A stretch of DNA of 40,828 bases, taken from NCBI GenBank assembly GCA_019308925.1, contig JAFDHG010000012.1, positions 1-40,828 on the forward strand, in the 5' to 3' direction. Below are positions 7,313 to 35,094 of this stretch, piece by piece (the stretch's first letter is position 1; each line of letters starts with the position of its first letter). The DNA is from Deltaproteobacteria bacterium (GTDB lineage: Bacteria > Desulfobacterota > B13-G15 > RBG-16-54-18). The position numbers and the translations under genes are program-made. The notes under the pieces were generated by a model. That model made no database searches and was not told the DNA's origin. It worked only from the letters and a program-made list of their open reading frames with translations.

Positions 7313-7336
7313 CAAATTTCATAGGGGGGAGGTTTG

Positions 7337-7693
7337 ATGCTCATCAACTATGTACCCGTCCTCTTTTTGATGGTGCTCGCCATATTTTTTGCCGCCTTTG
7401 CGGTATTTTTCTCCCACCTCTTAGGTCCCAAAAAGGTCCATCCGGTAAAGGCAGCCCCCTATGAGTGCGGGATGATCACCCTCGGCCCCACCCATCAGAC
7501 TATTCCTATAAAATACTACATCATCGCCATGCTCTTCCTCATCTTTGACCTGGAGGTGGTCTTCCTATACCCCTGGGCGGTGGTCTTTAGGGAGTTGGGG
7601 GTATTTGGCTTTGTGGAGATGATGATCTTTATCTTTATCCTACTGTTAGGTTTTGTCTATGTCTGGAAAAAAGGAGCCTTGGAATGGGAATAG
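7337..7693 (+). CDS. nuoA: NADH-quinone oxidoreductase subunit A
   Basis: NuoA is a small membrane subunit at the junction of the complex I peripheral and membrane arms. The 118 residues have three hydrophobic segments, the loop YECGMITLG with its conserved Glu and Cys, and the motif [18 protein letters not shown] 7337 is chosen over TTG 7334 because GGGGGGAGG (7324-7332) gives usable spacing only for the ATG. It is the first gene of the operon and overlaps nuoB by 10 bases. Confidence 0.95.
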
Positions 7694-8199
7694 AGGTCAA
7701 GTTAGGGGACAACATCATCACGGCCTCCCTCAGCAAATTGGTCAATTGGGCGCGAAAGAATTCCCTTTGGCCGGTGACCTTTGGCTTGGCTTGATGTGCC
7801 CTGGAGATGATGGTCACCAGTTCGGCGGCCTATGACATCGCCAGGTTTGGCGCTGAGGTATTTCGGCCCTCCCCCAGACAGGCAGACCTCATGATCGTGG
7901 CGGGGACGGTTACCAAAAAGATGGCCCCCATGGTCAAGAGGATCTACGACCAGATGCCCGAGCCCAAGTGGGTGATCGCCTATGGAAGTTGTGCCTCCTC
8001 AGGGGGGATCTTTCAGACCTATAATGTGGTGCAGGGGGTGGATCAGGTCATCCCTGTGGATGTCTATGTGCCAGGTTGCCCCCCAAGACCAGAGGCCCTC
8101 TTGACAGCCTTGATAAAACTACAGGAGAAGATCTCGGGGGAAAGCCTCTTGGACAGAAAGGATGAGATCCGTCCCCTCGAACTAGAGGAGATTCGATAA
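7684..8199 (+). CDS. nuoB: NADH-quinone oxidoreductase subunit B with in-frame TGA at an N2-cluster Cys (candidate selenoprotein)
   Basis: NuoB holds cluster N2, the 4Fe-4S centre that reduces the quinone. Read from ATG 7684, overlapping nuoA, the frame gives residues typical of NuoB, including [10 protein letters not shown], then TGA at codon 37, then CALEMM. In the family this site reads GLACCAIEMM, so the TGA replaces the first of two adjacent Cys that ligate N2. The other two ligands are present in GSCASSGG and VPGCPP. With the TGA decoded the product is 171 residues, normal for NuoB. The alternative start at ATG 7807 would lose both Cys, and its GGAG touches the ATG, so it is not credible. 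The organism demonstrably carries a Sec formate dehydrogenase. Either UGA is read as selenocysteine, or this is a sequencing error or nonsense mutation. Confidence 0.85.
7792..7794 (+). other. Candidate selenocysteine codon (UGA) in nuoB
   Basis: This TGA is codon 37 of nuoB, directly before the TGT of Cys38. It falls exactly on a metal-ligand Cys column, the usual place for Sec/Cys exchange. The flanking sequence on both sides is undamaged NuoB in one frame. The rest of the operon is intact, which argues against a decaying gene. A sequencing error of TGT or TGC cannot be ruled out. Confidence 0.5.
7798..7826 (+). promoter_or_regulatory. Weak SECIS-like hairpin downstream of the nuoB UGA
   Basis: GCC-CTGG (7798-7804) can pair with CCAG (7817-7820) and GGC (7824-7826), and TGA (7808-7810) with TCA (7814-7816), leaving a TGG loop. 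Bulges AGA and TTC break the stem. The loop starts 16 bases after the UGA and has G at position two, within the range described for bacterial SECIS elements. GGTC occurs at nearly the same spacing as in the fdhA element. It is clearly weaker than that one. Confidence 0.35.
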
Positions 8200-8211: not shown

Positions 8212-9903
8212 ATGTGGGATGTGGAGCTTGCCCCTAAGAAGCTGAAGGAGCAATTCCCCAACTCTATCCTGGAGGCCTATCCCTTTCAGGGGGAGATGAC
8301 CGGTGTGGTCAAGAAGGATGATATCCTGCCTATCTGCAAGTTCCTCTATGGAGATCCCGAGCTCGCCTTCGACTTCCTCACCGATATCTGTGGTGTAGAC
8401 TATCCGGGGAGGGAGAAGAGGTTTGAGGTGGTCTACCACCTCTATTCCATGAAGCGGAATAAGAGGTTGAGGATCAAGACCTCGGTGGGTGAGGGAGAGG
8501 CGATCTCCACGGTGGAATCGATCTGGAAGGCAGCCAACTGGTTAGAGCGAGAGGTCTACGATATGATGGGGATCCCCTTTGAAGGACACAGTGACCTGCG
8601 CCGCATCTTGACCTGGGAGGGTTATCAGGGTCATCCCCTGAGGAAGGACTTTCCACTGCGAGGGGAGGATTTCGAGCGCTATGAGGTACCAGCAGAACCG
8701 CCCGACGCCGTTCCCACGTTTGCCGGTGAGGTTGAGGGGGAGAGGTATATGACCCTGAACATGGGCCCTCAGCACCCGGCCACCCACGGGGTGTTGCGCT
8801 TGGTGTTGAAGCTCGATGGAGAGGTGATCGTCGATGCCGTCCCATACATCGGTCACCTTCACCGGGGCGTGGAGAAGTTGGGGGAGAATATGACCTATAC
8901 CCAGGCCATCACCCTTACAGACCGTTTGGACTACACCGCCGGCATATCCAATAATCTGGCCTATATCCTGACCGTGGAAAAACTTTTGGGGATAGAGGTA
9001 CCCAAGAGGGCCCAGTACATCCGGGTGATGCTGGCAGAGCTCCAGAGGATCGCGGCACACCTGCTCTGGCTTGCCAGCCATGCCCTGGACATGGGGGCCA
9101 TGACCGTCCTTTTTTACACCTTTCGAGAGAGGGAGACGGTTCTCGACATCCTGGAGCATGTCACTGGGGCCAGGCTTACCCCCAGCTTCTTGCGCATAGG
9201 GGGGCTGGCCGCTGACCTTCCAGACGGTATCGAGGGGAAGATCAGGGCATTTCTGGAGGATTTTCCCCGCCGCATCCACGAATATGAGACGCTGCTGACC
9301 AAAAACATCATCTGGCTGAAGAGGACTAAAGACGTTGGGGTCATCACCGCGCAGCAGGCCATCAATTGGGGGCTCACCGGCCCTGTGTTGAGGGGGTCAG
9401 GGGTCAAGTGGGACATCCGCAAGGTATTCCCCTATTCTAGCTATGGGGAGTTCGACTTTGAGATCCCTATCGGGGAAAAGGGTGATGTATACGACCGATA
9501 TATGGTGAGGTTGGAGGAGATGAGGCAGTCCGCCAGGATCGTCCGTCAGACCTTGGATAGGCTTCCCGACGGGGACCTCAACTATTATGACCCCAAGGTG
9601 ACACCGCCGAATAAGGATTTGGTGGAAAAGGAGATCAACGCCCTGATCCGCCACTTCAAACTTATGTCCGAGGGGATATCACCATTTCCAGGTGAGGTCT
9701 ACGCCAGCACCGAAAACCCCAAGGGGGAGCTGGGTTGGTATCTGGTGAGCGATGGAAGCAATCACCCCTATCGCTATCGTATCCGTCCCCCCTGCTTTGT
9801 GAACCTGGCGGCCCTGCCGGAGATGGTCAAGGGGCACCTGGTGGCCGATGTGGTGGCCGTCATCGGGAGCATAGACATCGTCTTAGGGGAGATAGACCGT
9901 TAG
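8212..9903 (+). CDS. nuoCD: NADH-quinone oxidoreductase subunit C/D fusion
   Basis: This is one 563-residue protein carrying NuoC (about residues 1-170: DICGVDYPGREKRFEVVYHL, YDMMGIPFEGHSDLRRIL) and NuoD (about 180-563: GPQHPATHGVLRLVL near residue 185, IGHLHRGVEK, RIAAHLLWL, ending GSIDIVLGEIDR). NuoD forms much of the quinone-binding cavity beside cluster N2 in NuoB. It lies 12 bases after nuoB. C/D fusions are known in several bacterial lineages, including E. coli. Confidence 0.97.
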   Translation: MWDVELAPKKLKEQFPNSILEAYPFQGEMTGVVKKDDILPICKFLYGDPELAFDFLTDICGVDYPGREKRFEVVYHLYSMKRNKRLRIKTSVGEGEAISTVESIWKAANWLEREVYDMMGIPFEGHSDLRRILTWEGYQGHPLRKDFPLRGEDFERYEVPAEPPDAVPTFAGEVEGERYMTLNMGPQHPATHGVLRLVLKLDGEVIVDAVPYIGHLHRGVEKLGENMTYTQAITLTDRLDYTAGISNNLAYILTVEKLLGIEVPKRAQYIRVMLAELQRIAAHLLWLASHALDMGAMTVLFYTFRERETVLDILEHVTGARLTPSFLRIGGLAADLPDGIEGKIRAFLEDFPRRIHEYETLLTKNIIWLKRTKDVGVITAQQAINWGLTGPVLRGSGVKWDIRKVFPYSSYGEFDFEIPIGEKGDVYDRYMVRLEEMRQSARIVRQTLDRLPDGDLNYYDPKVTPPNKDLVEKEINALIRHFKLMSEGISPFPGEVYASTENPKGELGWYLVSDGSNHPYRYRIRPPCFVNLAALPEMVKGHLVADVVAVIGSIDIVLGEIDR

Positions 9904-9938: not shown

Positions 9939-11897
9939 ATGGGAGAGGTAATTTTCAGCTATTGGGGAGGGAGGCTGACCGATAACAGGGGGAAGGCCCC
10001 GGAGGAGTTCGCCGAGCCGGAGAGGTTGAAATTGCCCCCTGAGTTCAAACCAGGGGTCCGGATAAAGGCCTTCATGGGGTGGGATGGCTTTGCCATCCAG
10101 GAGGCGGACGTCAGCATTGTCGATATGTGCCGGGCCTATATGGAGGCGGTGCAGAAGGAGTCCTGTGGGAAATGCTTCCCCTGCAGGGTCGGCACCAAGG
10201 TGATCGCCGAGACCCTGGAAAGGATCGCCCAAGGAAAGGGCAAGATGAGGGACTTGGACCTGATGGAGTCCCTGGGGCACTCCATCCAGGAGGGCTCAAA
10301 GTGCAATCTCGGCCAGACCGGCCCTATCCCCCTTCTGGTGGCCTTGGAGCATTTTCGCGACGAATTCGCGAAGGTGATCAAGAACAAGAAGAAGGTCCTC
10401 CGGGGAGATTATAAGGTTAAACTCACCGCCCCCTGTATGAATGCCTGCCCCACTCACGTGGACATCCCCAGCTATATAGAGCTCATCAAAGAGGGAGACT
10501 TCGCCGAGTCCCTTCGGGTCATCAGGGAGAGGACCTGCCTGCCAGGGGTCTTAGGGAGGGTCTGCATCCGCCCTTGCGAGTCCAATTGCCGCAGGCTCAA
10601 TGTAGATGAGGCCCTTGATATCAGGCATCTAAAGAGGTTTGTGGCCGACTATGAGGTAGAGAAGAAGAAGGCCCCCCTGCTTCCGACCCCTCAGGAGAGG
10701 AAGGGCAAAAAGGTGGCGGTCATTGGGGCGGGCCCGGCTGGTTTGACCTGCGCCTATTACCTGGCCCTCAAGGGATATCCGGTTATCATCTTTGAGAGGT
10801 TGGATGAACCAGGGGGGATGGCTGCAGTGGGTATCCCCGATTATCGACTGCCGCGTCCTATCCTGCGCCGGGAGGTGGATATCATCACCTCCTTGGGGGT
10901 GGAGATCAGGTATAACACCGAGGTGGGCAAGGATATCACCATCAGCGCAATGAAAAAGGAGTACGATGCCATCTTTATCGGGGTAGGGGCCCAAGGGTCT
11001 ACCCCCATGCGTGCAGAGGGAGAGGATGCGGGCTATAAGGGCTTTATCCCCGGTGTGCAATACCTTTTCAGCATCAACAAGGGTAAAGATCCCTATCCAG
11101 AGGGGGACCGGGTGGTAGTAGTAGGGGGTGGGAATGTCGCCATTGACTGTGTGCGCAGTTCCTTCCGGATAGGAAAGAAAGATGTCAACCTCCTCTACCG
11201 TCGTACCCGCCAGGAGATGCCTGCTGATGAGGAAGAGATCCATGGCGCCGATGAAGAAATGGTGAAGTTTGAGTACCTCTGCGCCCCCACCAAGGTCATC
11301 GCCAAGGGGGAAAAGGTGGTCGGGGTGGAGTGCATCAGGATGGAGCTAGGGGAACCGGACGAATCGGGCAGACGCAGACCGGTCCCCATCAAGGGATCGG
11401 AGTTCGTTGTCGATACGGATATCTTGATCCCTGCCATCGGTCAACGGGTTGATCTATCCTTTTTAGAAGAGAAGGACGGGGTACAGACCACCAAATGGTC
11501 TACGGTGGTGGCGAACGATGAGACCCTGGGCACCTCCCAAGCAGGGATCTTCTCCGCTGGAGACTGCGTCAGTGGCCCCGATGTGCTGGTGAGGGCGGCG
11601 GGCAACAGTAGATTGGCGGCGGAGATGATTGACCTCTACCTGAAGGGGGAGAAGGTAGAGGCCAGCGATGACGAGAGGCTGGAGAGGTTGATGAGCGAGA
11701 TCCGGGTATATGACTCTGAGGAGAATATCGGGATCATACCCGGGGGGAAGAGGGAGCAACTCGAGACCCTCCCCCCGGAGACCAGGAAGTGGACCTTTGA
11801 AGAGGTGGAGGAGGGATTTTCCACCGATGCGGCCATGCGGGAGGCTTCTCGCTGTTTGCGCTGTTATCGCATCGGCCTGGTGGCCATAGAGGAGTAA
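9939..11897 (+). CDS. Complex I electron-input subunit: NuoF-type 4Fe-4S domain fused to GltD-like FAD/NAD(P)H oxidoreductase
   Basis: The product is 652 residues from ATG 9939, which has GAGGTGA before it; open frame upstream is only a shadow inside nuoCD. Residues 60-125 are the NuoF C-terminal domain for cluster N3 (ESCGKCFPC with Cys76, Cys79 and Cys82, and KCNLGQTGP with Cys122). The NuoF FMN/NADH domain (GRGGAGFPTG) is missing. From about residue 164 it is a glutamate-synthase-small-subunit type protein: Cys-rich PCMNACPTHVDIPSY, VCIRPCESNCRR, FAD motif VAVIGAGPAG (about 259), NAD(P)H motif VVVVGGGN (about 394) and AGDCVSGPDVLV. It sits where nuoE and nuoF normally lie. It would pass electrons from NAD(P)H, or to and from a ferredoxin, through FAD and Fe-S clusters to NuoG. 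Confidence 0.88.
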   Translation: MGEVIFSYWGGRLTDNRGKAPEEFAEPERLKLPPEFKPGVRIKAFMGWDGFAIQEADVSIVDMCRAYMEAVQKESCGKCFPCRVGTKVIAETLERIAQGKGKMRDLDLMESLGHSIQEGSKCNLGQTGPIPLLVALEHFRDEFAKVIKNKKKVLRGDYKVKLTAPCMNACPTHVDIPSYIELIKEGDFAESLRVIRERTCLPGVLGRVCIRPCESNCRRLNVDEALDIRHLKRFVADYEVEKKKAPLLPTPQERKGKKVAVIGAGPAGLTCAYYLALKGYPVIIFERLDEPGGMAAVGIPDYRLPRPILRREVDIITSLGVEIRYNTEVGKDITISAMKKEYDAIFIGVGAQGSTPMRAEGEDAGYKGFIPGVQYLFSINKGKDPYPEGDRVVVVGGGNVAIDCVRSSFRIGKKDVNLLYRRTRQEMPADEEEIHGADEEMVKFEYLCAPTKVIAKGEKVVGVECIRMELGEPDESGRRRPVPIKGSEFVVDTDILIPAIGQRVDLSFLEEKDGVQTTKWSTVVANDETLGTSQAGIFSAGDCVSGPDVLVRAAGNSRLAAEMIDLYLKGEKVEASDDERLERLMSEIRVYDSEENIGIIPGGKREQLETLPPETRKWTFEEVEEGFSTDAAMREASRCLRCYRIGLVAIEE

Positions 11898-11898
11898 G

Positions 11899-14475
11899 AT
11901 GGGGGCAGCGATGGTCAAGTTAACCATTGATGGTAAGGAGATCATGGCGGAGGCTGACAGGACCATCTTGGAGGTGGCCCAGGAGAATGGGATCTATATC
12001 CCCACTCTCTGTTATCACCCCAGACTGACCCCCATTGGCTCGTGCCGCCTCTGCGTCGTGGAGATAGAGGGAGCGGACAGACCGATGACCGCCTGTACCA
12101 CCTATGTGCAGGATGGGATCGTGGTCCACACCCAGACGGAGAGGTTGAACCGCATCCGCCAAGATGCCCTCAAGCTTATTTTGCTCAACCACCCCCTAGA
12201 CTGCCCCCAATGTGATGCGGCCGGTGCGTGTGAGCTGCAAAATCTGGTCTTCGAGTTCGGCATAGATCAGCAGGACTATCAGGCCACCAAGGCCTCCAAA
12301 GGGATGAGGGAATTCGCCACCCCCCTGATCAGACAGTGGGTCGATCGTTGTGTCATGTGTATGCGCTGCATCAGGGCATGTCATGAGATTGTCAGGGTCC
12401 GGGCCATCGATTTGGCAGGGAAAGGGTACGATGCGGAGATAGAGATGAGGGACCCCGAGGCCTGTATCTCCTGTGGGGAGTGTCTGAGGGTCTGCCCAGT
12501 GGGGGCCCTGACCGAGAGGGTCAGCCGTATCAAGGCACGACCCTGGCAACAGCAGAAGGTCCTCACTACCTGTAATTACTGTTCCCTAGGCTGTCAACTG
12601 GAGCTGAACATCTTTGAGAACAAGGTGATAAGGGCGACAACCAAAGAGGATAAAGGGGCGAACAAAGGGAGCCTCTGCCAGAGGGGGAGCTTCGGATACG
12701 ACTTTCTCAATCACCCCCAAAGGGTCACCAGGCCCATGATAAAAGGGGCCGGTAAATGGAAGGAAGTCCCCTGGGAGGAAGCCCTCTCCTACGTTGCAGC
12801 AATGATCAATAAGGTCATCTTGAGTAGCGGCCCTGAGGCAGTAGGAGGCCTGATTTCCCCTCGCTGCACCAACGAGGAGGCCTACCTCTTCCAGAAATTC
12901 ATGAGAGAGGTAGTGGGGACTGACAATATAGATACCACCGGACGGTTCTGTCTGGAGCCATACCGTCTGGCCATAAGGGAGGTCATGGGGAAGGACTATC
13001 TTCCTTACAGCCTGGATGGAGTTGCCGAGGGCGATTGTATCATCATAGCAGGGGGGGATCTGGACAGGGACAACCTCATCGCCGCCAATCTGGTCAGGGA
13101 GGCCCTCTGGCGAAGGGGGGCACGCCTCATCGTGGTCCATCCCAGGCGGATTAGATTGGCCGAGGAGGCGGATTGTTGGTTTTGCCTGCGCCCTGGGGAT
13201 GAGTTGGTCTGGGTTAATGGTTTGATCCACCTCCTCTTGGAGAAAGGTAAAGGGGCCTGGGGACCGAGGGTGGAGGGGGTAAAGGGGTTGGATGCCCTCA
13301 AGGAGGCCGCCAAGAAATACACACCCGAGTACGTGGAGGGACTTATTGGCGTCCCCCAGGATCTCCTCAGGGAGGCGGCTGAATACCTGGCCCAGGCGAA
13401 AAAGCCTGCCATTATCTGTTCACCCCCTCTGGGGCAGCAGCCGCAAGGGGTGGATCAGATCAAGGGATTGGCCAACTTGGCACTCCTTTGCGGGGCCCTT
13501 TCCGAAGGTGGAGGGTTTCACTTTATTGGGCCTCAGAGCAACATGTTAGGGGTGGTAGAGATGGGGTCAGCACCCTCGCTCCATCCTGGATATCGCCCAG
13601 TGGATGGGAAGGGGCTTTCGGCGATGGAGATGTTTCAGGCGGCCTCCGAGGGGAGGCTTAAGGCATTATTCATCTTAGGGGAGAATCCCCTCATCACCCT
13701 CCCCAAATCCCTGGCAGAAGAGGGGTTGAAGGACCTGGACATTTTGGTAGTCCAGGATATGTTCCTTTCTGAGACGGCCGAGGAGGCCCATGTGGTCCTC
13801 CCTGCCCTCTCCTTTGCGGAGCTGGACGGCACCTATACCAACTGTGAGGGGAGAGTACAGAGGTTACGCAAGGCCTTAAAGCCCCCTGATGGTCTAAGGT
13901 GGGAGGGTGAGGTCTTATCGGATTTGGCTGCCTTCATGGGCAAGGAGATGAAGGCTGAATCTCCTGCAGGGGTCTTTGAAGAGATAAAAGGGACCAATCC
14001 CCTCTATAAGGGGATGGACTTTGAGGCATTGGACGCCCAGGTGCGGGATGACGGAGGAGGTGATCTTTTGGAAGAGGCGGCCTTTTGCCCTGTAGAGTCC
14101 AAACAGGAAAAGGAGCAGGAGGGCTATCCCTTTTCGCTTTCCGTGGAAGGCCTGTTTTATAACCACCTCATCGGCTCTGGCCCCCAGAGAAGGGCCCTGG
14201 GGTTGGCCAAGCTCTCTTCCAGTCCTTATCTGGAGATGAACGCTGAGGAGGCCAGAGGGATGGGTATCGGGGATGGCGACCGGGTTAAGGTTACTACCCC
14301 CTGGGGGGAGGTGGAGGTGGAGGCGAAAGGGTCAGAGGGGATGAGAAGGGATGTCCTTTCCCTCTATCTCTCCTTTTATGAGGTGGATGCCTCCGGGCTG
14401 GTGGGTCCACAATTAGACCCTGTTTCCAAGGTACCCCTTTACGGGAGGATCCCCGCCAGGGTAGAAAAGATTTAA
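11899..14475 (+). CDS. nuoG: NADH-quinone oxidoreductase subunit G (NuoG)
   Basis: NuoG carries the Fe-S wire of the peripheral arm. The 858 residues begin with a 2Fe-2S ferredoxin fold (CYHPRLTPIGSCRLC, MTACTT). Next come CPQCDAAGACELQ, two 4Fe-4S motifs (CVMCMRCIRAC, CISCGECLRVCPVGAL), the extra 4Fe-4S site CNYCSLGC...LCQRG, and a long molybdopterin-type domain with no catalytic Cys/Sec (TTGRFCLEPYR where the FDH has its Sec). Either ATG 11899 or ATG 11911 could be the start. 11899 follows GGAG at 4 bases and is used here. It begins one base after the GltD fusion gene ends, so the two are coupled. Confidence 0.95.
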   Translation: MGAAMVKLTIDGKEIMAEADRTILEVAQENGIYIPTLCYHPRLTPIGSCRLCVVEIEGADRPMTACTTYVQDGIVVHTQTERLNRIRQDALKLILLNHPLDCPQCDAAGACELQNLVFEFGIDQQDYQATKASKGMREFATPLIRQWVDRCVMCMRCIRACHEIVRVRAIDLAGKGYDAEIEMRDPEACISCGECLRVCPVGALTERVSRIKARPWQQQKVLTTCNYCSLGCQLELNIFENKVIRATTKEDKGANKGSLCQRGSFGYDFLNHPQRVTRPMIKGAGKWKEVPWEEALSYVAAMINKVILSSGPEAVGGLISPRCTNEEAYLFQKFMREVVGTDNIDTTGRFCLEPYRLAIREVMGKDYLPYSLDGVAEGDCIIIAGGDLDRDNLIAANLVREALWRRGARLIVVHPRRIRLAEEADCWFCLRPGDELVWVNGLIHLLLEKGKGAWGPRVEGVKGLDALKEAAKKYTPEYVEGLIGVPQDLLREAAEYLAQAKKPAIICSPPLGQQPQGVDQIKGLANLALLCGALSEGGGFHFIGPQSNMLGVVEMGSAPSLHPGYRPVDGKGLSAMEMFQAASEGRLKALFILGENPLITLPKSLAEEGLKDLDILVVQDMFLSETAEEAHVVLPALSFAELDGTYTNCEGRVQRLRKALKPPDGLRWEGEVLSDLAAFMGKEMKAESPAGVFEEIKGTNPLYKGMDFEALDAQVRDDGGGDLLEEAAFCPVESKQEKEQEGYPFSLSVEGLFYNHLIGSGPQRRALGLAKLSSSPYLEMNAEEARGMGIGDGDRVKVTTPWGEVEVEAKGSEGMRRDVLSLYLSFYEVDASGLVGPQLDPVSKVPLYGRIPARVEKI

Positions 14476-14485
14476 GGGGGAGAGG

Positions 14486-15481
14486 ATGGAGCTGGTCTAT
14501 TTCTTGATCGAGGCTGCAGTCAAGGTGGTGGTGGTCTTCTCCGTCCTGATGTTGGTGGTGGCCTATCTTACCCTTGTGGAGAGGAAGGTATTGGGACATA
14601 TCCAGGTGAGGTATGGGCCCAACCGGGTGGGACCCGTTGGGCTCTTTCAGCCCATTGCCGATGGGATCAAGGCCTTCTTCAAGGAGGAGGTGGTCCCGGC
14701 CAGGGCGGACAAATCACTCTTTATTATCGCCCCTATGATCAGTATTGTGGCGACGCTATCACTATTTGCCGTGATCCCCCTCAGCGATAAGATCGAGCTG
14801 TTTGGAAGGACCGTTTCCCTCACCATCACCGATCTCGATATCGGCCTCCTCTATGTCTTCGGTATAGCCTCCTTGGGGGAGTATGGGGTCGTCCTGGGTG
14901 GTTGGTCTGGTTATAACAAATATGGTATCATCGGTGCCCTGAGGGCGGCAGCCCAGATGATCAGCTATGAGGTGGCCCTGGGACTTTCGGTGATCGGGGT
15001 GTTGATGATCTCGGGGACCCTCAATTTGGTCGAGATCGTCCAAAGACAGGCCGGGGGGCACTGGAACGTCCTCTATCAGCCCTTTGCCTTTATCTTCTAC
15101 ATAATCTGTGCCATCGCAGAGATCAACCGGACCCCCTTCGATATGCCTGAGGCAGAGGCGGAGCTGGCATGCGGCTACAACATCGAGTACAGCAGCATGA
15201 AGTTCGCCCTCTTCTTCATGGCGGAGTACACACATCTGGTGGCGATATGTGCCATCGCTACGACCCTCTTTCTCGGAGGGTGGCATGGTCCATTCTTGCC
15301 CCCATCACTGTCTTGGATCTGGTTCGTGGTAAAGACAGGTATCCTGGTATACTTCTGTATCTGGGAGAGGGGGACCTTTCCACGGCTGAGGTACGATCAG
15401 ATCATGAAGCTCGGCTGGAAGGTCCTTTTGCCCTTGGCCTTGGCCAATATATTCTTCACTGGTTTGATTATGGTCCTTTAA
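14486..15481 (+). CDS. nuoH: NADH-quinone oxidoreductase subunit H
   Basis: NuoH is the membrane subunit that, with NuoB and NuoD, lines the quinone channel. The 331 residues form about eight hydrophobic helices. Conserved motifs are ERKVLGHIQVRYGPNRVGP, QPIADGIKAFFKEE, EINRTPFDMPEAEAEL and FPRLRYDQIMKLGWK. A GGGGGAGAGG site precedes ATG 14486, and the spacing to nuoG is 10 bases. Confidence 0.97.
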   Translation: MELVYFLIEAAVKVVVVFSVLMLVVAYLTLVERKVLGHIQVRYGPNRVGPVGLFQPIADGIKAFFKEEVVPARADKSLFIIAPMISIVATLSLFAVIPLSDKIELFGRTVSLTITDLDIGLLYVFGIASLGEYGVVLGGWSGYNKYGIIGALRAAAQMISYEVALGLSVIGVLMISGTLNLVEIVQRQAGGHWNVLYQPFAFIFYIICAIAEINRTPFDMPEAEAELACGYNIEYSSMKFALFFMAEYTHLVAICAIATTLFLGGWHGPFLPPSLSWIWFVVKTGILVYFCIWERGTFPRLRYDQIMKLGWKVLLPLALANIFFTGLIMVL

Positions 15482-15496: not shown

Positions 15497-15910
15497 ATGA
15501 TCATCCCACTCTTGAAAGGATTGAGGCTTACCCTAAAGAGGTTCTTTTCCCGTCCGGTGACCATTCAGTACCCTGAGCATAAGCGGGAGGTGGCCCCCAG
15601 GTGGAGGGGAATCCATTACTTTGAGCGAAACGAGAAGGGTGATACCCGTTGTGTGGCCTGTGGGCTCTGCGTGACCGTCTGCCCCTCTAATGCCATCCGT
15701 CTGGTGGCCGTGGAGTTAGAGGGGGGAGAAAGATATCCCGAGGTCTATGAGATAAACGCCATCAGGTGTATCTATTGTGGTCTCTGCGCCGAGGCCTGCC
15801 CGGTGAACGCCATCAAGTTGGGGAGGAACTATGAGTTTGTGGATTACCAGCGGGAAGACTTCATCCTGGATAAGGGGAGGCTTCTGGCCTCTGCCCCGAA
15901 GGAGGTATAG
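15497..15910 (+). CDS. nuoI: NADH-quinone oxidoreductase subunit I
   Basis: NuoI carries clusters N6a and N6b, which hand electrons to N2. The 137-residue protein has the two ferredoxin motifs CVACGLCVTVCPSNAI and CIYCGLCAEACPVNAI, with all eight ligand Cys. The N-terminal amphipathic part and PEHKREVAPRWRG are typical. It lies 15 bases after nuoH. Confidence 0.96.
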   Translation: MIIPLLKGLRLTLKRFFSRPVTIQYPEHKREVAPRWRGIHYFERNEKGDTRCVACGLCVTVCPSNAIRLVAVELEGGERYPEVYEINAIRCIYCGLCAEACPVNAIKLGRNYEFVDYQREDFILDKGRLLASAPKEV

Positions 15911-15916
15911 ATAGTC

Positions 15917-16441
15917 ATGGGGACCTTCTTTTATTGGATCGCCTTTATCCTGACCGCCCTGATTGCCATCTTTGCTGCGGTGATGGTGATTACCCGCCGC
16001 AACCCCATCCACTCGGCCATGTTCTTGGTCCTCAACTTCCTCTGCATCGCTGTGCTCTATCTGCTCCTCAACTCCCAGTTTATCGCCATCGCCCAGGTGT
16101 TGATCTATGCCGGGGCCATCATGATGTTGGTCATCTTCGTCATCATGTTGCTGAGTGTGGAGGAAGAAGAGAGGACTTACAAGATCCGGCTCTCCCCCGC
16201 CACGGTGATAGGGATGGTCCTTGTCATCATCCTCTTTGCCCAGCTCATCTATGGGATTGCCCTCAAGGTATTGCCAGGGGAAAGTGGAGAGTTTACCCCG
16301 GAGAGGATCGCTCAACTGGGCGAGGTCAAGGCAGTGGGAGGATTGCTGTTTACCCGCTTTCTCTTCCCCTTTGAGGTGGCCTCCATCCTGCTGTTGGTGG
16401 GGATTATCGGGGCAGTAATCCTGAGCAAAAAGGAGAGGTAG
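15917..16441 (+). CDS. nuoJ: NADH-quinone oxidoreductase subunit J
   Basis: This is a membrane subunit of the proton-pumping arm. The 174 residues contain five hydrophobic segments and the motif [20 protein letters not shown], which includes the pi-bulge helix of TM3. GGAGGT sits 11 bases before ATG 15917, overlapping the end of nuoI. Confidence 0.95.
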
Positions 16442-16446
16442 AAGAT

Positions 16447-16758
16447 ATGCTTTCCAGCGTGCCACCCATCTGTTACTTGGTCGTGAGCGCCCTGATCTTT
16501 GCCATTGGGGCGGTGGGGGTCCTGATCAGGAGGAATGCCATCGTCATCTTTATGTGCATCGAGATGATGCTCAGCGCCGTCAACCTCAGCCTGATCACCG
16601 CCTCCCATTATCTGAACTCCCTGGATGGGGTCCTGATGGTCTTCTTTGTGATGACGGTGGCGGCGGCTGAGGCGGCCGTTGGTCTGGCCATCTTCGTACT
16701 TCTTTATCGGGGGCGGGGGACCATAAAGGTGGACGAGATAAACCTCTTGAAATGGTGA
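16447..16758 (+). CDS. nuoK: NADH-quinone oxidoreductase subunit K
   Basis: This small antiporter-related membrane subunit is 103 residues, the normal length. It has three hydrophobic helices and the conserved acidic residues in [12 protein letters not shown] and [13 protein letters not shown]. Its stop codon is the first part of the hairpin array that separates it from nuoL. Confidence 0.96.
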
Positions 16759-16886: not shown

Positions 16887-18862
16887 ATGATCGAATATGT
16901 ATGGTTGATACCTCTATTCCCTGCCATGGGATTTTTGTTCAACGGTCTGATAGGGAGGTGGTATAACCTTGACAAGAAGGTGGTCAGTTGGGTGGCGTGT
17001 TCTGTCCTGGGGCTATCTTTCCTCTTCTCCATCCTGGTCTTTTTCAGCCTCCTCAGGCTCCCCCCTGATGCCCGGGCTGCTGTGCCCGACAAGGTCCTCT
17101 TTGATTGGATAGTCTCCGGGGGGCTCAAGGCAGTAGTAGGTTATAAGATCGATCCCCTCTCCATCGTCATGGCCATGGTGGTCAGCGGGGTGAGCTTTTT
17201 CATCCATATCTACTCTGTGGGCTACATGCACGATGACACAGGGTTCACCAGGTATTTCGCCTTCCTCAACCTCTTTGTCTTTATGATGCTCACCCTGGTC
17301 CTGGCCAACAACTTCCTGCTGATGTTTGTCGGATGGGAGGGTGTAGGGCTTTGTTCTTATCTCCTGATCGGCTTTTGGTTTGAGAGGGATGCCCCCGCCA
17401 ATGCGGGCAAGAAGGCCTTTGTGGTCAATAGGGTGGGGGACTTTGGTTTCTTGTTAGGGATGTTCATGATCTTCACCCATTTGGGTACTCTGGAGTTCAA
17501 TCAGGTCTTTGCCAAGGCCCATATCCTCGATCCTGTCACCGTGACCCTGATTACCCTCCTGCTCTTCACAGGGGCCACCGGCAAATCTGCCCAGCTCCCC
17601 CTATATGTGTGGCTCCCCGATGCCATGGAGGGTCCCACACCTGTCAGCTCCCTGATCCATGCCGCCACCATGGTCACCTCGGGCGTCTACATGATAGCCC
17701 GCTGCCACGTCCTGTACAGCATGGCCCCTGTCTCCATGGCGGTGGTGGCCATCTTCGGCGCTGCCACAGCCATCTATGCCGCCTCCATGGGCCTTTTGCA
17801 GTTCGATATCAAGCGGGTGCTGGCCTATTCCACCATCAGCCAGCTCGGTTATATGTTTCTCGCCGTGGGGGTGGGGGCCTTTAGCGCGGGGATCTTTCAC
17901 CTCATGACCCATGCCTTCTTTAAGGGGCTCCTCTTTTTGGGGGCAGGGAGTGTGATGCACGCCCTGAGCGGGGAATTGGATATGAGGAACATGGGGGGGT
18001 TGTGGAAGAAGACCCCCATCACCTTTTGGACCTTCTTGATGGCTACGTTGGCCATTGCGGGGATTCCCGGGTTTTCGGGGTTTTTCAGCAAGGACGAGAT
18101 CCTCTGGCAGTCCTTCAGCAGCCCCCACGGTCATCTCTTTCTTTGGCTGGTGGGGGCCGTCGCAGCGGGGATGACCGCCTTCTATATGTTTCGGCTCACC
18201 TTTGTCACCTTTTTCGGGCAGTGCCGGGCCTCAGAAGAGGTAAAGAAGCACATCCATGAGTCCCCCCCCATTATGACCGTCCCCCTCATCATCCTGGCCA
18301 TCCTCTCGGTGATTGGCGGTTATGTGGGGATACCCTATATCCTAGGGGGGAGGAACTACTTCCATGAGTTTCTCGCCCCTGTATTGGGGGGACACCCAGA
18401 GGGAGTTGGGCATGCCTCCTTCTCCTTGGTCAAGTTCGCCTATGCCGCTGGTGTGACGGAGGGGGGAGGCAGCATCAACTTGGAGCTCATCCTGATGGTC
18501 GCCTCTGTAATCATCGCTTTGATCGGGATCAGTATCGCCTTTTATCTTTATATCCTGAAGCCCGATGTCCCAAAGAGATTGGCCCAGAGATTTAAGACGT
18601 TATACACCATCATCTTCAATAAGTATTATGTGGATGAGATATATGGGGCCTGTTTTGTCAATAGCTCCAAGAATATAGGCAACTTCTTCTGGCGGGAGTT
18701 CGACGACGGGGTGGTAGATCGAACCGTGAATCTGGTTGCTGGGCTTATGCTCTGGTGGGGGAGGATCCTGCGCAAGATCCAGACAGGCCGTGTGCAGGGT
18801 TACGCCCTTGGTATGATCTTTGGTGCGGTGGCGGTCGTCATATTATTGATAAGGAGTCTTTT

Positions 18863-18866
<4 letters not shown>
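16887..18866 (+). CDS. nuoL: NADH-quinone oxidoreductase subunit L
   Basis: NuoL is the distal proton-pumping subunit, related to Mrp antiporters, with a long lateral helix. The 659 residues include [48 protein letters not shown]-type [19 protein letters not shown], and a C-terminal extension for the lateral helix. AAGGAG lies 6 bases before ATG 16887, directly after the last intergenic hairpin. The end overlaps the nuoM start (ATGA). Confidence 0.97.
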
Positions 18867-20449
<1,583 letters not shown>

Positions 20450-20456
20450 GAGGGAG

Positions 20457-21923
20457 ATGGAGATCTTCAAGATCCAGTTTTCAGCAGCAGATCTAAAGGT
20501 GATCGCCCCGGAGTTGGTATTGATCATCTTCGCCCTGTTGATCTTGGGTTTGAGCGTCTTTGTTCGCGGTGAGAAGAGGGGCTTACTCGGTTATACCGCC
20601 CTGCTAGGGGTGGCCGCGGCCTTTCTCTCCCTGTTTTTGGGGATCGGCAAGGACTTAAGCGCCTTCAACGGCATGGTAAAGATCGATCCCTTCTCCTTCT
20701 TCTTCAAGGTCATGTTCTTGATCATCGCCTTTTTGACCGTCTTGGCCTCCCTGGAATACACCAGGAGGGAGGGGATAGATTTTGGTGAATATTATGTCCT
20801 GGTCTTGTTCGCCACCGCGGGGATGATGTTGATGGCCTCGGGGGTCAACCTCCTGATCATCTTTTTGGGGCTGGAGGTGATGTCCATCTCCATCTATGTC
20901 TTGGCCGGCATCATGCGGGAGGATACCAGATCGGTGGAGGCGGCCTTTAAGTACTTTTTATTGGGGGCCTTTGCCTCGGCCTTTCTCCTCTATGGTATCG
21001 CCCTTACCTATGCCTCCACAGGCACCCTCGATTTGGGCAGGATAGGCCATATCCTCACAGAGCGGGCTTGGGTCAGCAGCCTCCCCATTGTGATTATAGG
21101 GCTTGCCCTCCTGATCATAGGATTTGGCTTCAAGATCGCCTTGGTCCCCTTTCATATGTGGACCCCTGATGTATATGAGGGTGCTCCAACCTCCATCACT
21201 GCCTTTATGGCCACAGGGGTCAAGGCCGCAGGGTTCGCCGCCTTTGTAAGGGTCTTCTTTTACGCCCTGCCCAACCTGCAGGCCTACTGGACGGAGATTA
21301 TGTGGCTTTTGGCGGTGGCCACTATGATAGTGGGGAACATCATCGCCCTTTCCCAAACCAATATCAAGAGGATGCTCGCCTACTCCAGTATCGCCCATGC
21401 AGGCTACATCATGGTGGCCTTTGTGGCTGGAAACGAGCTGGGCAAATCGAGCATCCTCTTTTACCTCCTGGCCTATATCTTTATGAACATAGGGGCCTTT
21501 ACGGTAATAATCCTGCTGGGGAAGAAGGGGGAGGAGAACACCCTTATAACAGATTATGCGGGGATCGGCTTTAAACATCCCCTGTTGGCAGCCTCTATGT
21601 CCATCTTCATGCTCTCGTTGGCAGGGGTACCCCCCATGGCCGGTTTTATGGCCAAATTCTATGTGTTCAGCGCCGCAGTGAAGGCCAAATACTATTGGCT
21701 GGCAGTCATCGGGGTCTTAAATAGCGCTGTCGCTGCCTATTACTACCTCAGAGTGCTGATATATATGTACTTCCGAGAGCCGGAGAAGGACGTGGCGATA
21801 GAGGCCTTTTCACCAGCTGCTGTCTTAGCCGTAATTATATCGGTATGGGGTGTGTTGCAGATCGGGATCTTACCCTCTACCTTTCTGGCCCTGGCCCAAC
21901 GGTCCATCCAGTTCTTATTATGA
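20457..21923 (+). CDS. nuoN: NADH-quinone oxidoreductase subunit N
   Basis: This is the third antiporter-like subunit and the last gene of the nuo operon. The 488 residues are almost entirely hydrophobic, with LEVMSISIYVLAG, FKIALVPFHMWTPDVYEGAPT, MLAYSSIAHAGYIMV and LAGVPPMAGFMAKFYVF. The ribosome site is in AGAGGGAG just before ATG 20457. No clear terminator follows, so read-through into the next cassette is possible. Confidence 0.96.
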   Translation: MEIFKIQFSAADLKVIAPELVLIIFALLILGLSVFVRGEKRGLLGYTALLGVAAAFLSLFLGIGKDLSAFNGMVKIDPFSFFFKVMFLIIAFLTVLASLEYTRREGIDFGEYYVLVLFATAGMMLMASGVNLLIIFLGLEVMSISIYVLAGIMREDTRSVEAAFKYFLLGAFASAFLLYGIALTYASTGTLDLGRIGHILTERAWVSSLPIVIIGLALLIIGFGFKIALVPFHMWTPDVYEGAPTSITAFMATGVKAAGFAAFVRVFFYALPNLQAYWTEIMWLLAVATMIVGNIIALSQTNIKRMLAYSSIAHAGYIMVAFVAGNELGKSSILFYLLAYIFMNIGAFTVIILLGKKGEENTLITDYAGIGFKHPLLAASMSIFMLSLAGVPPMAGFMAKFYVFSAAVKAKYYWLAVIGVLNSAVAAYYYLRVLIYMYFREPEKDVAIEAFSPAAVLAVIISVWGVLQIGILPSTFLALAQRSIQFLL

Positions 21924-22397: not shown

Positions 22398-22847
22398 ATG
22401 CAAGAGCGTGTGCTGGAGCGGGATTATGAGATCGAGGGGAGGGACTTCAGGAATGCGGGGAAGGTCTCGAGCAAGGTCAAGGGGATCTTGAAGGAACTGG
22501 GTTTCGATCCGAACTTTATAAGAAGGGTGGCCATTGCCTCCTATGAGGCGGAGATGAATGTAGTTTGTCATGCGGAGAAAGGGACTCTATACTTTACCAT
22601 CAGCCCTGAAAAGCTGAAGATTGTGGTGGAGGACAAAGGACCTGGCATAGAGGATATCGAGCTGGCGATGCAGGAGGGTTATTCCACCGCCTCCCCGGAG
22701 ATCAGGGAGATGGGCTTTGGGGCGGGGATGGGGCTCTCCAACATCAAGAAGAACGTAGATGCGTTGAACATTGTTTCTACAGCGGGAGAGGGGACCATAG
22801 TGGAGATGATCACTAAATCCCCTACATCCGATAAAGGATTAGAATGA
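22398..22847 (+). CDS. RsbW-like serine kinase/anti-sigma-type ATPase
   Basis: This 149-residue protein is a lone GHKL/HATPase domain. The N box is EAEMNVVCHA, G1 is VEDKGPGIEDIELAM, and G2 is GFGAGMGLSNIKKNVD. That pattern fits RsbW/SpoIIAB-type kinases. No sigma factor or STAS antagonist is nearby, so its partner is unknown. Its stop overlaps the next ATG (ATGA), so it is coupled to the hydrogenase-like Fe-S protein. Confidence 0.82.
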   Translation: MQERVLERDYEIEGRDFRNAGKVSSKVKGILKELGFDPNFIRRVAIASYEAEMNVVCHAEKGTLYFTISPEKLKIVVEDKGPGIEDIELAMQEGYSTASPEIREMGFGAGMGLSNIKKNVDALNIVSTAGEGTIVEMITKSPTSDKGLE

Positions 22848-24184
22848 AAAAATCTTATGGGATCATCACCATCGATGAGGACAAATGTCAGGGCTGCGTA
22901 AATTGTATGATGTCCTGCCGTACCGAGGCCATCAGGATCTATGAGGGCAAGGCCAGGATCCTCACCAATAAGTGCATCTACTGCGGAAAGTGTTTTCGTG
23001 ATTGCCCTGAAAATGCCATCACCGCCAGTACCCACGGCCTGGAAGACCTTAAGCGTTATAAATATACCATCGTCATTCCTACTTCCTCACTATATGCCCA
23101 GTTCCCTGGAGAGGGAGTGCCTAACAAGGTCCTCTGCGCCCTAAAGGCCCTCGGTTTTGACGATGTCTGTGAGGAGGCGGTGGGGGCGGAGATAGCGAGT
23201 ATAGCTACCCAAGAATATCTCAAGGAATATCGTGGTCCTTACCCCATCATCTCCTCCTACTGCCCAGCCATCATCAGGTTGATCCAGATACAGTTTCCCA
23301 ATTTCGTCGACAATATTAACCCCATTGAGCTCCCCGCAGAGATTACGGCCAAATATGCAAGGGAGGAAAAGGTGAAGGAGCTGGGGTTGAGGGAGGAGGA
23401 GATAGGGATCTTTTATATTGCACCTTGTCCGGCAAAGATAGTGGCCATTGCCAAAACGGAAACAAAGGAGAGGTCTTATATAAATGGGACCATATCCATC
23501 TCCGCCATCTACGGACAATTGTTGGCAGTCCTAAGGGAGGTGAGGGAAGAGGAGGATCTCCAGAAGGCCACCGGGGTAGGGATAGGATGGGCGATGAAAG
23601 GAGGGGAGATCAGGGAGCTGGAGCGCCAAAGGTGCCTGCGGGATGACAAGGAGAGCATTGTGGTGGACGGGATCAAGAACGTGATAAAAGTCCTGGATGG
23701 GATAGAAAACGGCAAGTTGCGCAACATCGAGTTTATTGAGGCGAGGTCTTGTCCAGAGGGTTGTATAGGTGGTGCCTTGACCGTGGCCGATCGCTATGTG
23801 GCCAGGGGGAGGATAAGGAAGCTGATGCTCGGCAACGAGAAGGAGTCGGAGATAAAAAGGGAAGAGGTGGTGAGGCGTTTCAGGGAAGGGTATTACTTTT
23901 TCGAGAAGAGGTTGAAACCAAAGCCCTTTGCCAGCCGCTTGGACCCTGACCCCATCAAGGCCGTGGAGAAGATGAAGCTGCGGGATGAGATCCACTCCTC
24001 TTTGCCCGGTTTGGACTGCGGGGCCTGTGGTGCCCCCAATTGCCGAGCTTTAGCCGATGACGTCGTGCAGGGGAGGGCGGAGGTAACCGATTGTATCTTC
24101 AAGTGGAGGGAGAGGGCCAAAGATCTGGCCGAAGAGGTGATGGAGTGGGCGGGAAAGAAGCCCCATTCCATACCCAAGAGGTAG
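22844..24184 (+). CDS. [FeFe]-hydrogenase-like Fe-S protein with altered active site
   Basis: The 446-residue protein has two 4Fe-4S motifs (CQGCVNCMMSC, CIYCGKCFRDCP; residues 15-54). A hydrogenase large-subunit-like domain follows, then a C-terminal Fe-S domain CGACGAPNC...C (about 390-420). The H-cluster motifs are changed. TSCCP is SSYCP (Tyr139-Cys140), MPCxAKxxE is APCPAKIVA (Cys195, Lys198, Ala201), and the L3 motif is RSCPEGCIGG (Cys303, Cys307). All four cluster-ligand Cys are kept. The proton-relay Cys (CpI Cys299) and Glu (CpI Glu361) are lost. A sensor or electron-transfer role is more likely than rapid hydrogen turnover. No hydE, hydF or hydG lies in the window. Confidence 0.8.
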   Translation: MKKSYGIITIDEDKCQGCVNCMMSCRTEAIRIYEGKARILTNKCIYCGKCFRDCPENAITASTHGLEDLKRYKYTIVIPTSSLYAQFPGEGVPNKVLCALKALGFDDVCEEAVGAEIASIATQEYLKEYRGPYPIISSYCPAIIRLIQIQFPNFVDNINPIELPAEITAKYAREEKVKELGLREEEIGIFYIAPCPAKIVAIAKTETKERSYINGTISISAIYGQLLAVLREVREEEDLQKATGVGIGWAMKGGEIRELERQRCLRDDKESIVVDGIKNVIKVLDGIENGKLRNIEFIEARSCPEGCIGGALTVADRYVARGRIRKLMLGNEKESEIKREEVVRRFREGYYFFEKRLKPKPFASRLDPDPIKAVEKMKLRDEIHSSLPGLDCGACGAPNCRALADDVVQGRAEVTDCIFKWRERAKDLAEEVMEWAGKKPHSIPKR

Positions 24185-24186
24185 AT

Positions 24187-24531
24187 ATGAAGCTTGCAGA
24201 TTTAGTAAATGATCTCCAGTTGGTTGCAAAGGCCGCCCAAGGGGGGCTCGACAGAGAAGTGAAGGGGGGATATGCCAGCGACCTGCTCAGTGATGTCATG
24301 GCCAACAGCAGGGAGGGGGATATCTGGGTGACCATCCAGGGTCATCCTAACATCGTGGCAGTGGCCACCCTGCGGGACCTGGCGGGGATCATCATGGCCA
24401 ATGGCCGACAGCCCGATGCGGAGACCGTGCAGCGGGCCGAAGAGGAAGGTGTCCCTATCCTGTGTACTCCCATGCCGACCTTTGAGGTCGTGGGCAGACT
24501 CTATCGCTTGGGTATATATGGCCAACGTTGA
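24187..24531 (+). CDS. DRTGG-domain protein (second copy)
   Basis: This 114-residue paralogue of the gene at 22031 has KLADLVNDLQLVAKA, GGYASDLLSDVMANSREGDIWVT and GVPILCTPMPTFEVVGRLYRLG. The Asp-Leu-Leu-Ser-Asp-Val core is shared with many DRTGG proteins beside hydrogenase-like genes. It starts 2 bases after the Fe-S gene and its TGA overlaps the PHP gene ATG. Function is unknown; it probably works with the ATPase and PHP proteins of this cassette. Confidence 0.72.
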   Translation: MKLADLVNDLQLVAKAAQGGLDREVKGGYASDLLSDVMANSREGDIWVTIQGHPNIVAVATLRDLAGIIMANGRQPDAETVQRAEEEGVPILCTPMPTFEVVGRLYRLGIYGQR

Positions 24532-25265
24532 TGTTGAGGGTTTATACCTCAGATCTCCATATCCATAGCTGTCTTTCCCCCTGCGCAGATCTGGAGATGG
24601 CCCCCAAGGATATCGTGAGACGGGCTGCGGAGGAGGGATTAGACATAATAAGCATCACCGATCATAATTCGGGTAAGAATGTCGAGGCCGTCATACAGGC
24701 GGCAGAAGGATCCCCAGTATCGATCTTTCCGGGAATGGAGGTGCAGACCATTGAGGAGGTGCATATATTGACCTTTTTCAAGGACCTCAACGCCCTGAGG
24801 GAGTGGGATGAAATTGTCTATGAGGGCTTGCCCGATGTACCGAACAACCCCGATTACTTTGGGGACCAACCCATCGTCAACATGGAGGGGGAGATACTGG
24901 GATTTGAGGAGAAATTATTGCTTAATTCCGTTCAGATGACCGTTGATCAGGTCTTCAAGGAGGTGGAGAGATGGGGGGGGTATTGCCTCCCCGCCCATGT
25001 CGATAGGGGTTCCTTTGGCCTTATTGGACAATTGGGGTTTATTCCCTCCAACCTCAATATCGTTGCTGTTGAGGTACACGACCTCCATAGGGCAGACCAG
25101 CTCACTGAGCTGAAGGGCCTGCGTTTTATCACCTCCTCCGATGCACACTTCCTGTCCGAGGTGGGGGGGAGAAGGTCCGATCTCCTCATGGAGGGGGTCT
25201 CTTTTTCAGAACTCAAGATGGCCCTTGAAGGCAGAAAAGGGAGGGAGATTGTCTCCCTTCGATAG
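24531..25265 (+). CDS. PHP-domain metal-dependent hydrolase/phosphatase
   Basis: The product is 244 residues from ATG 24531; TTG one codon earlier is not needed. PHP metal motifs are in place: DLHIHSCLSPC (HxH), ITDHNSGKN (Asp-His), GMEVQTIEEVHIL (Glu, His), LPAHVDRGSFG (His) and SSDAHFL (Asp-x-His). The family hydrolyses phosphoesters such as histidinol phosphate or nucleotides. The substrate here is unknown. Its fixed place between DRTGG and ATPase genes suggests a signalling nucleotide or phosphoprotein, which is inference. Confidence 0.82.
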   Translation: MLRVYTSDLHIHSCLSPCADLEMAPKDIVRRAAEEGLDIISITDHNSGKNVEAVIQAAEGSPVSIFPGMEVQTIEEVHILTFFKDLNALREWDEIVYEGLPDVPNNPDYFGDQPIVNMEGEILGFEEKLLLNSVQMTVDQVFKEVERWGGYCLPAHVDRGSFGLIGQLGFIPSNLNIVAVEVHDLHRADQLTELKGLRFITSSDAHFLSEVGGRRSDLLMEGVSFSELKMALEGRKGREIVSLR

Positions 25266-25268
25266 GAT

Positions 25269-25838
25269 ATGTTGGAGTTGTCCCTTCATATCTTGGACAT
25301 AGTTCAGAACTCTATTGTGGCTGGGGCAGACCTAATAGAGATAGAGATCGAAGAGGATAGAGGGAGGGACTATCTTCTGATCTCCATAAGGGATAACGGC
25401 CGGGGTATTCCGAAGGAAGATTTACTCAGGGTTACCGACCCGTTTTATACTTCCCGTGAGACCAGGAGGGTGGGATTAGGCCTGTCTTTGCTGCAACAGG
25501 CAGCTCTTCAGTGTGACGGTGATCTGGAGGTCAAATCTGGTCAGGACCGAGGGACTGAGGTGAAGGCCTATTTCAAACACAGTCATATAGACAGGATGCC
25601 CCTGGGGGATATGGCGAAGACGATGAGTATTTTGATAGGCGCTAATCCACAGATAGATTTCTGTTATCACCATAGGTTAGAAGGGGATGAGTTTAAATTG
25701 GATGCCCGGTTATTGAGGGAGAACCTGGATGGGGTCCCCTTGAATGACCATAATGTCATCGCCTTTATCCTCCAGGAGGTCGGTGAATGGATGGAGAGGA
25801 GGAACTGTAGGTTGAGGGAGGACAGAGATGAAGCTTGA
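25269..25838 (+). CDS. Histidine-kinase-like ATPase (HATPase domain, no sensor domain)
   Basis: This 189-residue GHKL ATPase has the N box HILDIVQNSIVAGAD, G1 RDNGRGIP, F box DPFYTSRETRRVGLG, and G2 GLGLSLLQQAA. It lacks a phospho-acceptor His domain or membrane sensor. The C-terminal third (about residues 115-189) has no motif I recognise. It overlaps the next gene by 11 bases, which ties the signalling cassette to the electron-transfer genes downstream. Confidence 0.8.
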   Translation: MLELSLHILDIVQNSIVAGADLIEIEIEEDRGRDYLLISIRDNGRGIPKEDLLRVTDPFYTSRETRRVGLGLSLLQQAALQCDGDLEVKSGQDRGTEVKAYFKHSHIDRMPLGDMAKTMSILIGANPQIDFCYHHRLEGDEFKLDARLLRENLDGVPLNDHNVIAFILQEVGEWMERRNCRLREDRDEA

Positions 25839-26187
25839 GGAGTTGAGGGAGATAAAGGAGAGGGCCAAGAGGGAGATGGAGCTCAGGCAGAAGGGGAAGG
25901 GGATCAAGAGGGTAGTAGTGGGAATGGGGACCTGTGGCATCGGAGCTGGGGCCAGAGAGGTGATGGCAGCCATTCTAGATGAGATATCTAAGAGGGGAAT
26001 TGTTGATGTAGAGGTGACTCAGACAGGTTGTGCTGGCTACTGTGAACATGAACCCATGGTGACGGTGATCGATGAAGGAGGGAGGGTCATCTATGGAAAG
26101 GTGACCCCAGATGATGCTAGGGAGATAGTGGAAAAGCACCTCTTGGGGGGTACAGTCTTAGGGCACCTGGTCTTTGAGCCTAGCTAG
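25828..26187 (+). CDS. Thioredoxin-like (2Fe-2S) ferredoxin-domain protein
   Basis: This 119-residue protein has a basic coiled N-terminal helix (residues 1-25), then a thioredoxin-like ferredoxin domain with Cys in MGTCGIGAGAREV and QTGCAGYCEHEP. This is the COG3411-type partner often encoded beside HydABC/HylABC complexes. Three Cys are seen, so cluster binding probably needs a further ligand or partner. A Cys-less paralogue lies at 26756. Confidence 0.82.
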   Translation: MKLEELREIKERAKREMELRQKGKGIKRVVVGMGTCGIGAGAREVMAAILDEISKRGIVDVEVTQTGCAGYCEHEPMVTVIDEGGRVIYGKVTPDDAREIVEKHLLGGTVLGHLVFEPS

Positions 26188-26247
26188 TCCCATGACGAAG
26201 AGACACGCTGTGATGAAAAGATATTAAAGCAATGGAGGAAGGGGGAT

Positions 26248-26727: not shown

Positions 26728-26755
26728 AGTTTCCCTTTGTGATTAAGGAGGATAC

Positions 26756-27133: not shown

Positions 27134-27157
27134 TATATCGATGAGGAGGGGTTTACC

Positions 27158-30202: not shown

Positions 30203-30217
30203 AAGGAGGGCCAAAGG

Positions 30218-32917: not shown

Positions 32918-32929
32918 GAGGGTGAAGGG

Positions 32930-33385: not shown

Positions 33386-33401
33386 GATGAAGGAGGCGAA
33401 G

Positions 33402-35087: not shown

Positions 35088-35094
35088 ATGTCTT

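Follow-up and report, generated by a model that had tools for sequence, protein, structure and literature searches.

Complex I is usually regarded as the entry point for NADH, and the question raised by the locus described here is which donor would feed a complex I whose operon carries neither nuoE nor nuoF. The window, i.e., the whole stretch of 40,828 nucleotides analysed from a deltaproteobacterium of the phylum Desulfobacterota (contig JAFDHG010000012.1), contains a nuo operon with the order nuoA, nuoB, nuoCD, a gene joining an N3-type cluster domain to a GltD-like module (N3-GltD), nuoG, nuoH, nuoI, nuoJ, nuoK, nuoL, nuoM and nuoN (Table 1). No nuoE was found between its ends at 7334 and 21923, as an earlier note made from the sequence had observed, and no nuoF either. 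The Q and P modules are complete (NuoB, CD, I, H, A, J, K, L, M and N), NuoB only with readthrough of an in-frame TGA. The genome possesses one NuoH gene, and therefore this operon encodes its sole complex I. As argued below, an SfrAB-like NADPH dehydrogenase module has probably taken the place of the N-module of this complex (NuoE and NuoF).

Table 1. Position of the nuo genes, domains and RNA element in the window.
Feature	Position	Strand	Remarks
nuoA	7334..7693	+	Pfam
nuoB	7684..8199	+	in-frame TGA at codon 37, read as selenocysteine
nuoB TGA codon	7792..7794	+	first Cys of the tandem CC binding cluster N2
SECIS-like hairpin GGTCACC-AGTTC-GGCGGCC	7812..7830	+	17 bases past the TGA, 7 bp
nuoCD fusion	8212..9903	+	Pfam
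N3-GltD fusion subunit (SfrB-like)	9939..11897	+	652 aa, flanked by nuoCD and nuoG
NuoF-type N3 [4Fe-4S] domain	10122..10370	+	PF10589 NADH_4Fe-4S, residues 62-144, E 4.7e-28 (Pfam)
GltD cluster domain	10428..10667	+	PF14691 Fer4_20, residues 164-243, E 3.3e-26 (Pfam)
FAD and NAD(P)H double Rossmann module	10707..11600	+	PF07992 Pyr_redox_2, residues 257-554, E 4.5e-27 (Pfam)
C-terminal segment LETLPPETRKWTFEEVEEGFSTDAAMREASRCLRC with C639 and C642	11760..11867	+	N-terminal in NfnB; aligned to NfnL residues 8-42
nuoG / SfrA-like subunit	11899..14475	+	FeS domains and FDH-like domain; Pfam
nuoH	14486..15481	+	Pfam
nuoI	15497..15910	+	two [4Fe-4S]; Pfam
nuoJ and nuoK	15917..16758	+	Pfam
nuoL, nuoM and nuoN	16887..21923	+	nuoL: Pfam; nuoM/nuoN: ORF translation, order conserved in relatives

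The N3-GltD reading frame is intact, starting with ATG and having GAGGTG ahead of the start. Its N3 domain bears the cysteines C76, C79, C82 and C122, in accordance with the earlier note, followed by C166, C170, C209, C213 and C217 in the GltD cluster domain, where K232 takes the position of K170 of StnC, and then by the motifs GGGNVAID and YRRTRQEMPA in the double Rossmann module. Meanwhile, the Complex1_51K FMN/NADH domain was absent from the protein in the Pfam search. The earlier note had claimed that the N3-type site of NuoF is kept and that the FMN/NADH domain has given way to a GltD-like FAD/NAD(P)H module, and both claims are borne out by the Pfam domain content, the first also by conservation: among 29 orthologues, C76, C79, C122, C166, C170, C209, C213, C217, C639, C642 and K232 are invariant and C82 nearly so, and the YRR and GGGN motifs are kept in all (29/29).

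Regarding the fold, the predicted structure (mean pLDDT 93.3, pTM 0.91) has its top matches in the PDB with NfnABC/StnC, of the GltD-NuoG type, and the next with NfnL and GltD. The nearest solved relatives of the N3 domain are HydB/StnB, at approximately 104 bits, compared to 58 bits or less for the NuoF of complex I. Relative to NfnB, the GltD module shows a circular permutation, with the N-terminal EAxRCLxC segment of NfnL aligned to the C-terminus of the N3-GltD protein. A phylogeny of the GltD part against NfnB, proposed along with the earlier note, placed the N3-GltD-type modules in a single supported clade separate from NfnB (99/96).

The earlier note treated this subunit as a single case; it belongs instead to a widespread family, including free-standing members. 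The stand-alone fusion, delimited at 759 bits or more and with an ORF mostly of 630-745 aa (shorter at contig ends), is present in about 80 of the 297 Desulfobacterota genomes sampled, and is kept apart from NuoF-GltD fusions, which are longer (about 1000 aa) and score 755 bits or less. Many genomes carry the same fusion in the same operon position at 44-87% identity, and this recurrence excludes a chance origin. In the operons read, the gene lies between nuoCD and nuoG or nuoH, and NuoE or NuoF had no match inside any of those bearing N3-GltD. In other genomes, it is paired with a NuoG/FdhA-like gene away from nuo (two-gene pairs with a NuoG-like gene occur, for example, at loci L159-L162 and L165) and, consequently, complex I is not required for the pair to act, a point that weighs against the replacement proposed above. 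At least four switches between the location in nuo and the rest are needed on the tree of 46 sequences, two of them forced by well-supported branches. The phylum also has nuo operons of 11 subunits that are devoid of an N-module (L088, L098-L100). Two nuo operons, L091 (genome G032) and L051, possess N3-GltD and lack NuoG; in G032 the sole strong NuoG-like match is a distant Sec-FdhA (C3:152151). Furthermore, the permuted GltD module appears to be a general NAD(P)H plug-in. In this phylum, it likewise occurs in fusions with proteins labelled, by sequence reading, as RnfB-like, HdrA-like and IorA-like (L120, L121, L122, L127; L119, L128, L130; L116).

The free pair of N3-GltD and a NuoG/FdhA-like protein has what we take to be the layout of SfrAB, the NADPH dehydrogenase of Geobacter. 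In Geobacter sulfurreducens, SfrAB is an NADPH:Fe(III) oxidoreductase specific for NADPH. The likeness is one of architecture and of published descriptions: an N3-GltD protein of about 650 aa stands beside a NuoG-like partner, and the subunits of this NADPH oxidoreductase are described as GltD-like (SfrB) and NuoG-like (SfrA) (PMC7483475, PMC3543383, PMC9888536). However, SfrAB is a soluble enzyme of two subunits, whereas the N3-GltD/NuoG pair forms part of a complete nuo operon.

StnABC, the Sporomusa-type transhydrogenase (PDB 8oh5), shares with the N3-GltD protein the permuted GltD, the FAD-proximal lysine and the C-terminal RCLxC. There, the electrons of NADPH take a linear path that leads from FAD over both GltD clusters and the NuoG-type clusters to the N3-type cluster, and the FAD-proximal cluster of StnC has the lysine ligand K170, where the bifurcating NfnB has a glutamate (PMC10482914). 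The path proposed for N3-GltD likewise has NADPH feeding a chain of NuoG-type clusters that connects with an N3-type cluster. The arrangement is different, because in StnABC GltD is fused to NuoG (StnC) and N3 lies inside the full, FMN-bearing StnB, together with StnA; moreover, StnABC is soluble, bifurcating and without a membrane arm. NfnB has in common with the N3-GltD protein a GltD fold with FAD and NADPH, but it is not permuted, is bifurcating and has NfnA as partner, and its cluster ligand is Glu instead of Lys; in the N3-GltD protein this residue is K232, where NfnL has the E of the aligned LERF. The full NuoF-GltD fusions, one of which is found in the window (27158-30202), have the same order of N3 and permuted GltD, with 45% identity over residues 2-642, but keep the FMN/NADH domain, and the window copy adds an N-terminal TrxFd and sits in a formate dehydrogenase cluster. 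The 11-subunit complex I-like enzymes and the epsilonproteobacterial Nuo are also without the canonical NuoE/F NADH module; however, no GltD-type subunit appears in their descriptions, and their donor is thought to be ferredoxin or flavodoxin (PMC11238625). In the passages searched of open-access papers on Desulfobacterota Nuo, 11-subunit Nuo and selenoproteomes, an N3-GltD subunit of complex I is not described. The subunit is a known type of protein part (SfrB-like, a GltD plug-in) in an unusual place, which makes the assembly a complex I variant and not a system of a new kind.

Since the operon lacks nuoE and nuoF, the FMN/NADH site is gone and a GltD-type site is joined to N3, the best reading is that NADPH would enter through the FAD of the N3-GltD subunit, which supports the suggestion of the earlier note that a different donor uses a GltD-type FAD. 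The relatives and the conserved YRR motif point indirectly to NADPH rather than NADH. By its StnC-type lysine, in place of the glutamate of NfnB, the flavin looks non-bifurcating. NADPH would then be oxidised at this FAD, and single electrons would travel by way of both GltD [4Fe-4S] clusters to the N3-type cluster that the subunit has kept, from there to NuoG (N1b, N4 and N5), NuoI (N6a and N6b), N2 in NuoB and quinone, driving ion pumping. In the structure of complex I, N3 hands the electrons first to N1b of NuoG and only after to N4, so the direct transfer from N3 to N4 assumed in the earlier note has to be amended. Equally allowed would be reverse electron transport, with the complex making NADPH for anabolism. 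The domain content, the operon position, the loss of the FMN site, the conserved ligands, the TGA, the hairpin and the Sec machinery are seen in the sequence itself; from it, we infer the assembly of the complex, its NADPH specificity, the path and direction of the electrons and the incorporation of selenocysteine discussed below.

The genome has four FMN-type NuoF and four full-length NuoE genes, every one outside the nuo operon. Two of each are located on the same strand, 4-13 kb downstream, in a formate dehydrogenase cluster (25828-35012) with a Sec-FdhA, a 1014-aa TrxFd-NuoF-GltD fusion, two NuoE and a second NuoF, which looks like a bifurcating formate dehydrogenase; the dehydrogenase gene itself (30218-32917) has a classic Sec site, with the TGA at 31277-31279. 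The remaining copies are on contigs C10 and C46, adjoining NuoG-like genes. A block of regulatory look separates the nuo operon from this cluster (22398-25838), with two histidine-kinase-type ATPases, an [FeFe]-hydrogenase-like sensor protein and a PHP-domain protein, and a transposase-like ORF (35059-35760), by eye of the REP-associated type, lies at the end of the cluster.

These copies bear on the possibility, raised in the earlier note, of a separate nuoEF joining the complex. Such genes do exist, in the downstream cluster and in two others, but they adjoin NuoG/FdhA-like subunits of their own. That NuoE and NuoF from the formate dehydrogenase cluster (genes at 26248-35012), or from the clusters of the other contigs, dock onto complex I is the least probable of the explanations weighed here. 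The proximity and common strand of the downstream copies would fit such docking, as would the NuoF-GltD fusions that G004 and G002 also carry about 18 kb from their N3-GltD gene; however, the copies come with FdhA (Sec) or NuoG/HydA-like subunits of their own, the N3-GltD protein already fills the N3 slot, and the N3-GltD nuo operons of many other genomes read without NuoE/F. Hardly more probable is a bifurcating module, where NADPH would reduce both ferredoxin and the complex I chain in an Nfn-like manner, or where reduced ferredoxin would enter via the GltD clusters. A link of this kind between ferredoxin and NAD(P)H had been considered possible in the earlier note, and the N3-GltD protein does have the GltD fold in common with NfnB, but a lysine is found at the FAD-proximal cluster instead of the glutamate, as in the non-bifurcating StnC, the operon has no NfnA-like partner, and the GltD module groups apart from NfnB in the tree.

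A soluble enzyme is somewhat more plausible than either of these, though still unlikely: N3-GltD and NuoG would form an SfrAB-like NADPH dehydrogenase that is merely co-transcribed, while an 11-subunit Nuo would be fed by ferredoxin. The existence of free SfrB and NuoG pairs and of 11-subunit nuo operons lacking the N-module in the same phylum is in agreement with it, as is the ferredoxin donor proposed for the 11-subunit complex of Desulfitobacterium (PMC11238625). On the other hand, in many lineages the gene occupies the former nuoEF position inside the nuo operon, between nuoCD and nuoG, NuoG is itself a member of the pair, and the subunit retains N3, which in complex I is the cluster facing NuoG.

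Besides its N-module, the operon is unusual in nuoB, where selenocysteine as a ligand of N2 is the natural reading of the in-frame TGA, a codon that the earlier note leaves unmentioned; the first cysteine ligand of this cluster would then be encoded as selenocysteine in the window genome and in several relatives. A search with an exact degenerate pattern found the TGA in 33 of the 395 genomes of the phylum, from 16 genera and nine families, and the Cys form in 215 of the 395; the reversed pattern, used as control, gave 0 matches. Several carriers of the TGA form, including the window genome, have no Cys copy by this pattern, and in the relatives the flanking sequence is intact. The 11-subunit operons without N-module mentioned above (L088, L098-L100) also possess it. 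A sequencing error or pseudogene was discarded, as the codon recurs in nine families and the frame is open beyond it where read, and so was a code change of TGA to Trp, because other sequences have Cys at this site and the remaining nuo genes have uninterrupted frames in translation table 11. A truncated NuoB starting at the ATG at 7807 is unlikely, since it would be without the CC motif of N2 and no other NuoB was found in the genome.

The hairpin downstream of the TGA was compared in eight distinct sequences: 91% of the cells are paired and three of the seven pairs changed on both sides, with a covariation score reached by none of 500 shuffles, and one column pair (25/35, an A/C mismatch) is unpaired in five of the eight. 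The TGA carriers examined have SECIS-like hairpins, which in other Sec-nuoB lineages differ in sequence but lie at a comparable position. On average, the hairpins are more stable in Sec than in Cys nuoB, some Cys relatives keeping one, and this comparison of related sequences is supportive only. No SECIS-type family of Rfam matched over the hairpin. Regarding the machinery, SelB (399.7 bits) and tRNA-Sec (79.4 bits) are present in the window genome; three other carriers (G171, G118 and G207) have SelB and no strong match to tRNA-Sec. NuoB is not among the selenoproteins listed in the open-access reviews of prokaryotic selenoproteins that were searched, and Sec-NuoB is not described in the passages searched of the papers on selenoproteomes, Desulfobacterota Nuo and 11-subunit Nuo.

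The NuoG of the window scores slightly higher as a formate dehydrogenase alpha subunit than as NuoG, both scores being under the cut-offs. Its active site is lost, with TTGRFCLEP replacing HCARLUH, and lacks the dehydrogenase arrangement of a Sec/Cys directly followed by His. Meanwhile, an intact HCARL-TGA-H is found in the gene that fills the NuoG slot of the N3-GltD operons L093, L094, L095 and L170, and in five genomes of one genus (G016, G053, G238, G145 and G217; loci L134 and L179-L182) this slot is empty and a Sec-FdhA is directly upstream of nuoA, on the same strand. By their sequence, those operons are read as complex I variants where a live formate dehydrogenase may take the role of NuoG. 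According to an old proposal, NuoG descended from formate dehydrogenase.

The Sec-NuoB and FdhA-NuoG findings add to the interest of the complex I variant. A complex I lineage of anaerobic Desulfobacterota that combines an NADPH-dehydrogenase N-module, an FDH-type NuoG (live with Sec in some members, dead here) and a Sec-ligated N2 can be proposed tentatively, with chances slightly short of even. If true, this lineage would bring formate, NADPH and quinone together at a proton pump and would provide a living intermediate for the proposed descent of NuoG, whose origin from formate dehydrogenase becomes directly testable with a live enzyme in the NuoG slot. A selenolate on N2, the donor cluster to quinone, would lend itself naturally to probing the coupling step, and Sec-NuoB would add a core respiratory subunit to the known selenoproteins. 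For a widespread group of anaerobes, an NADPH input module in the operon would alter the coupling between NADPH, quinone and the ion gradient and open a pmf-driven route to the reduction of NADP+.
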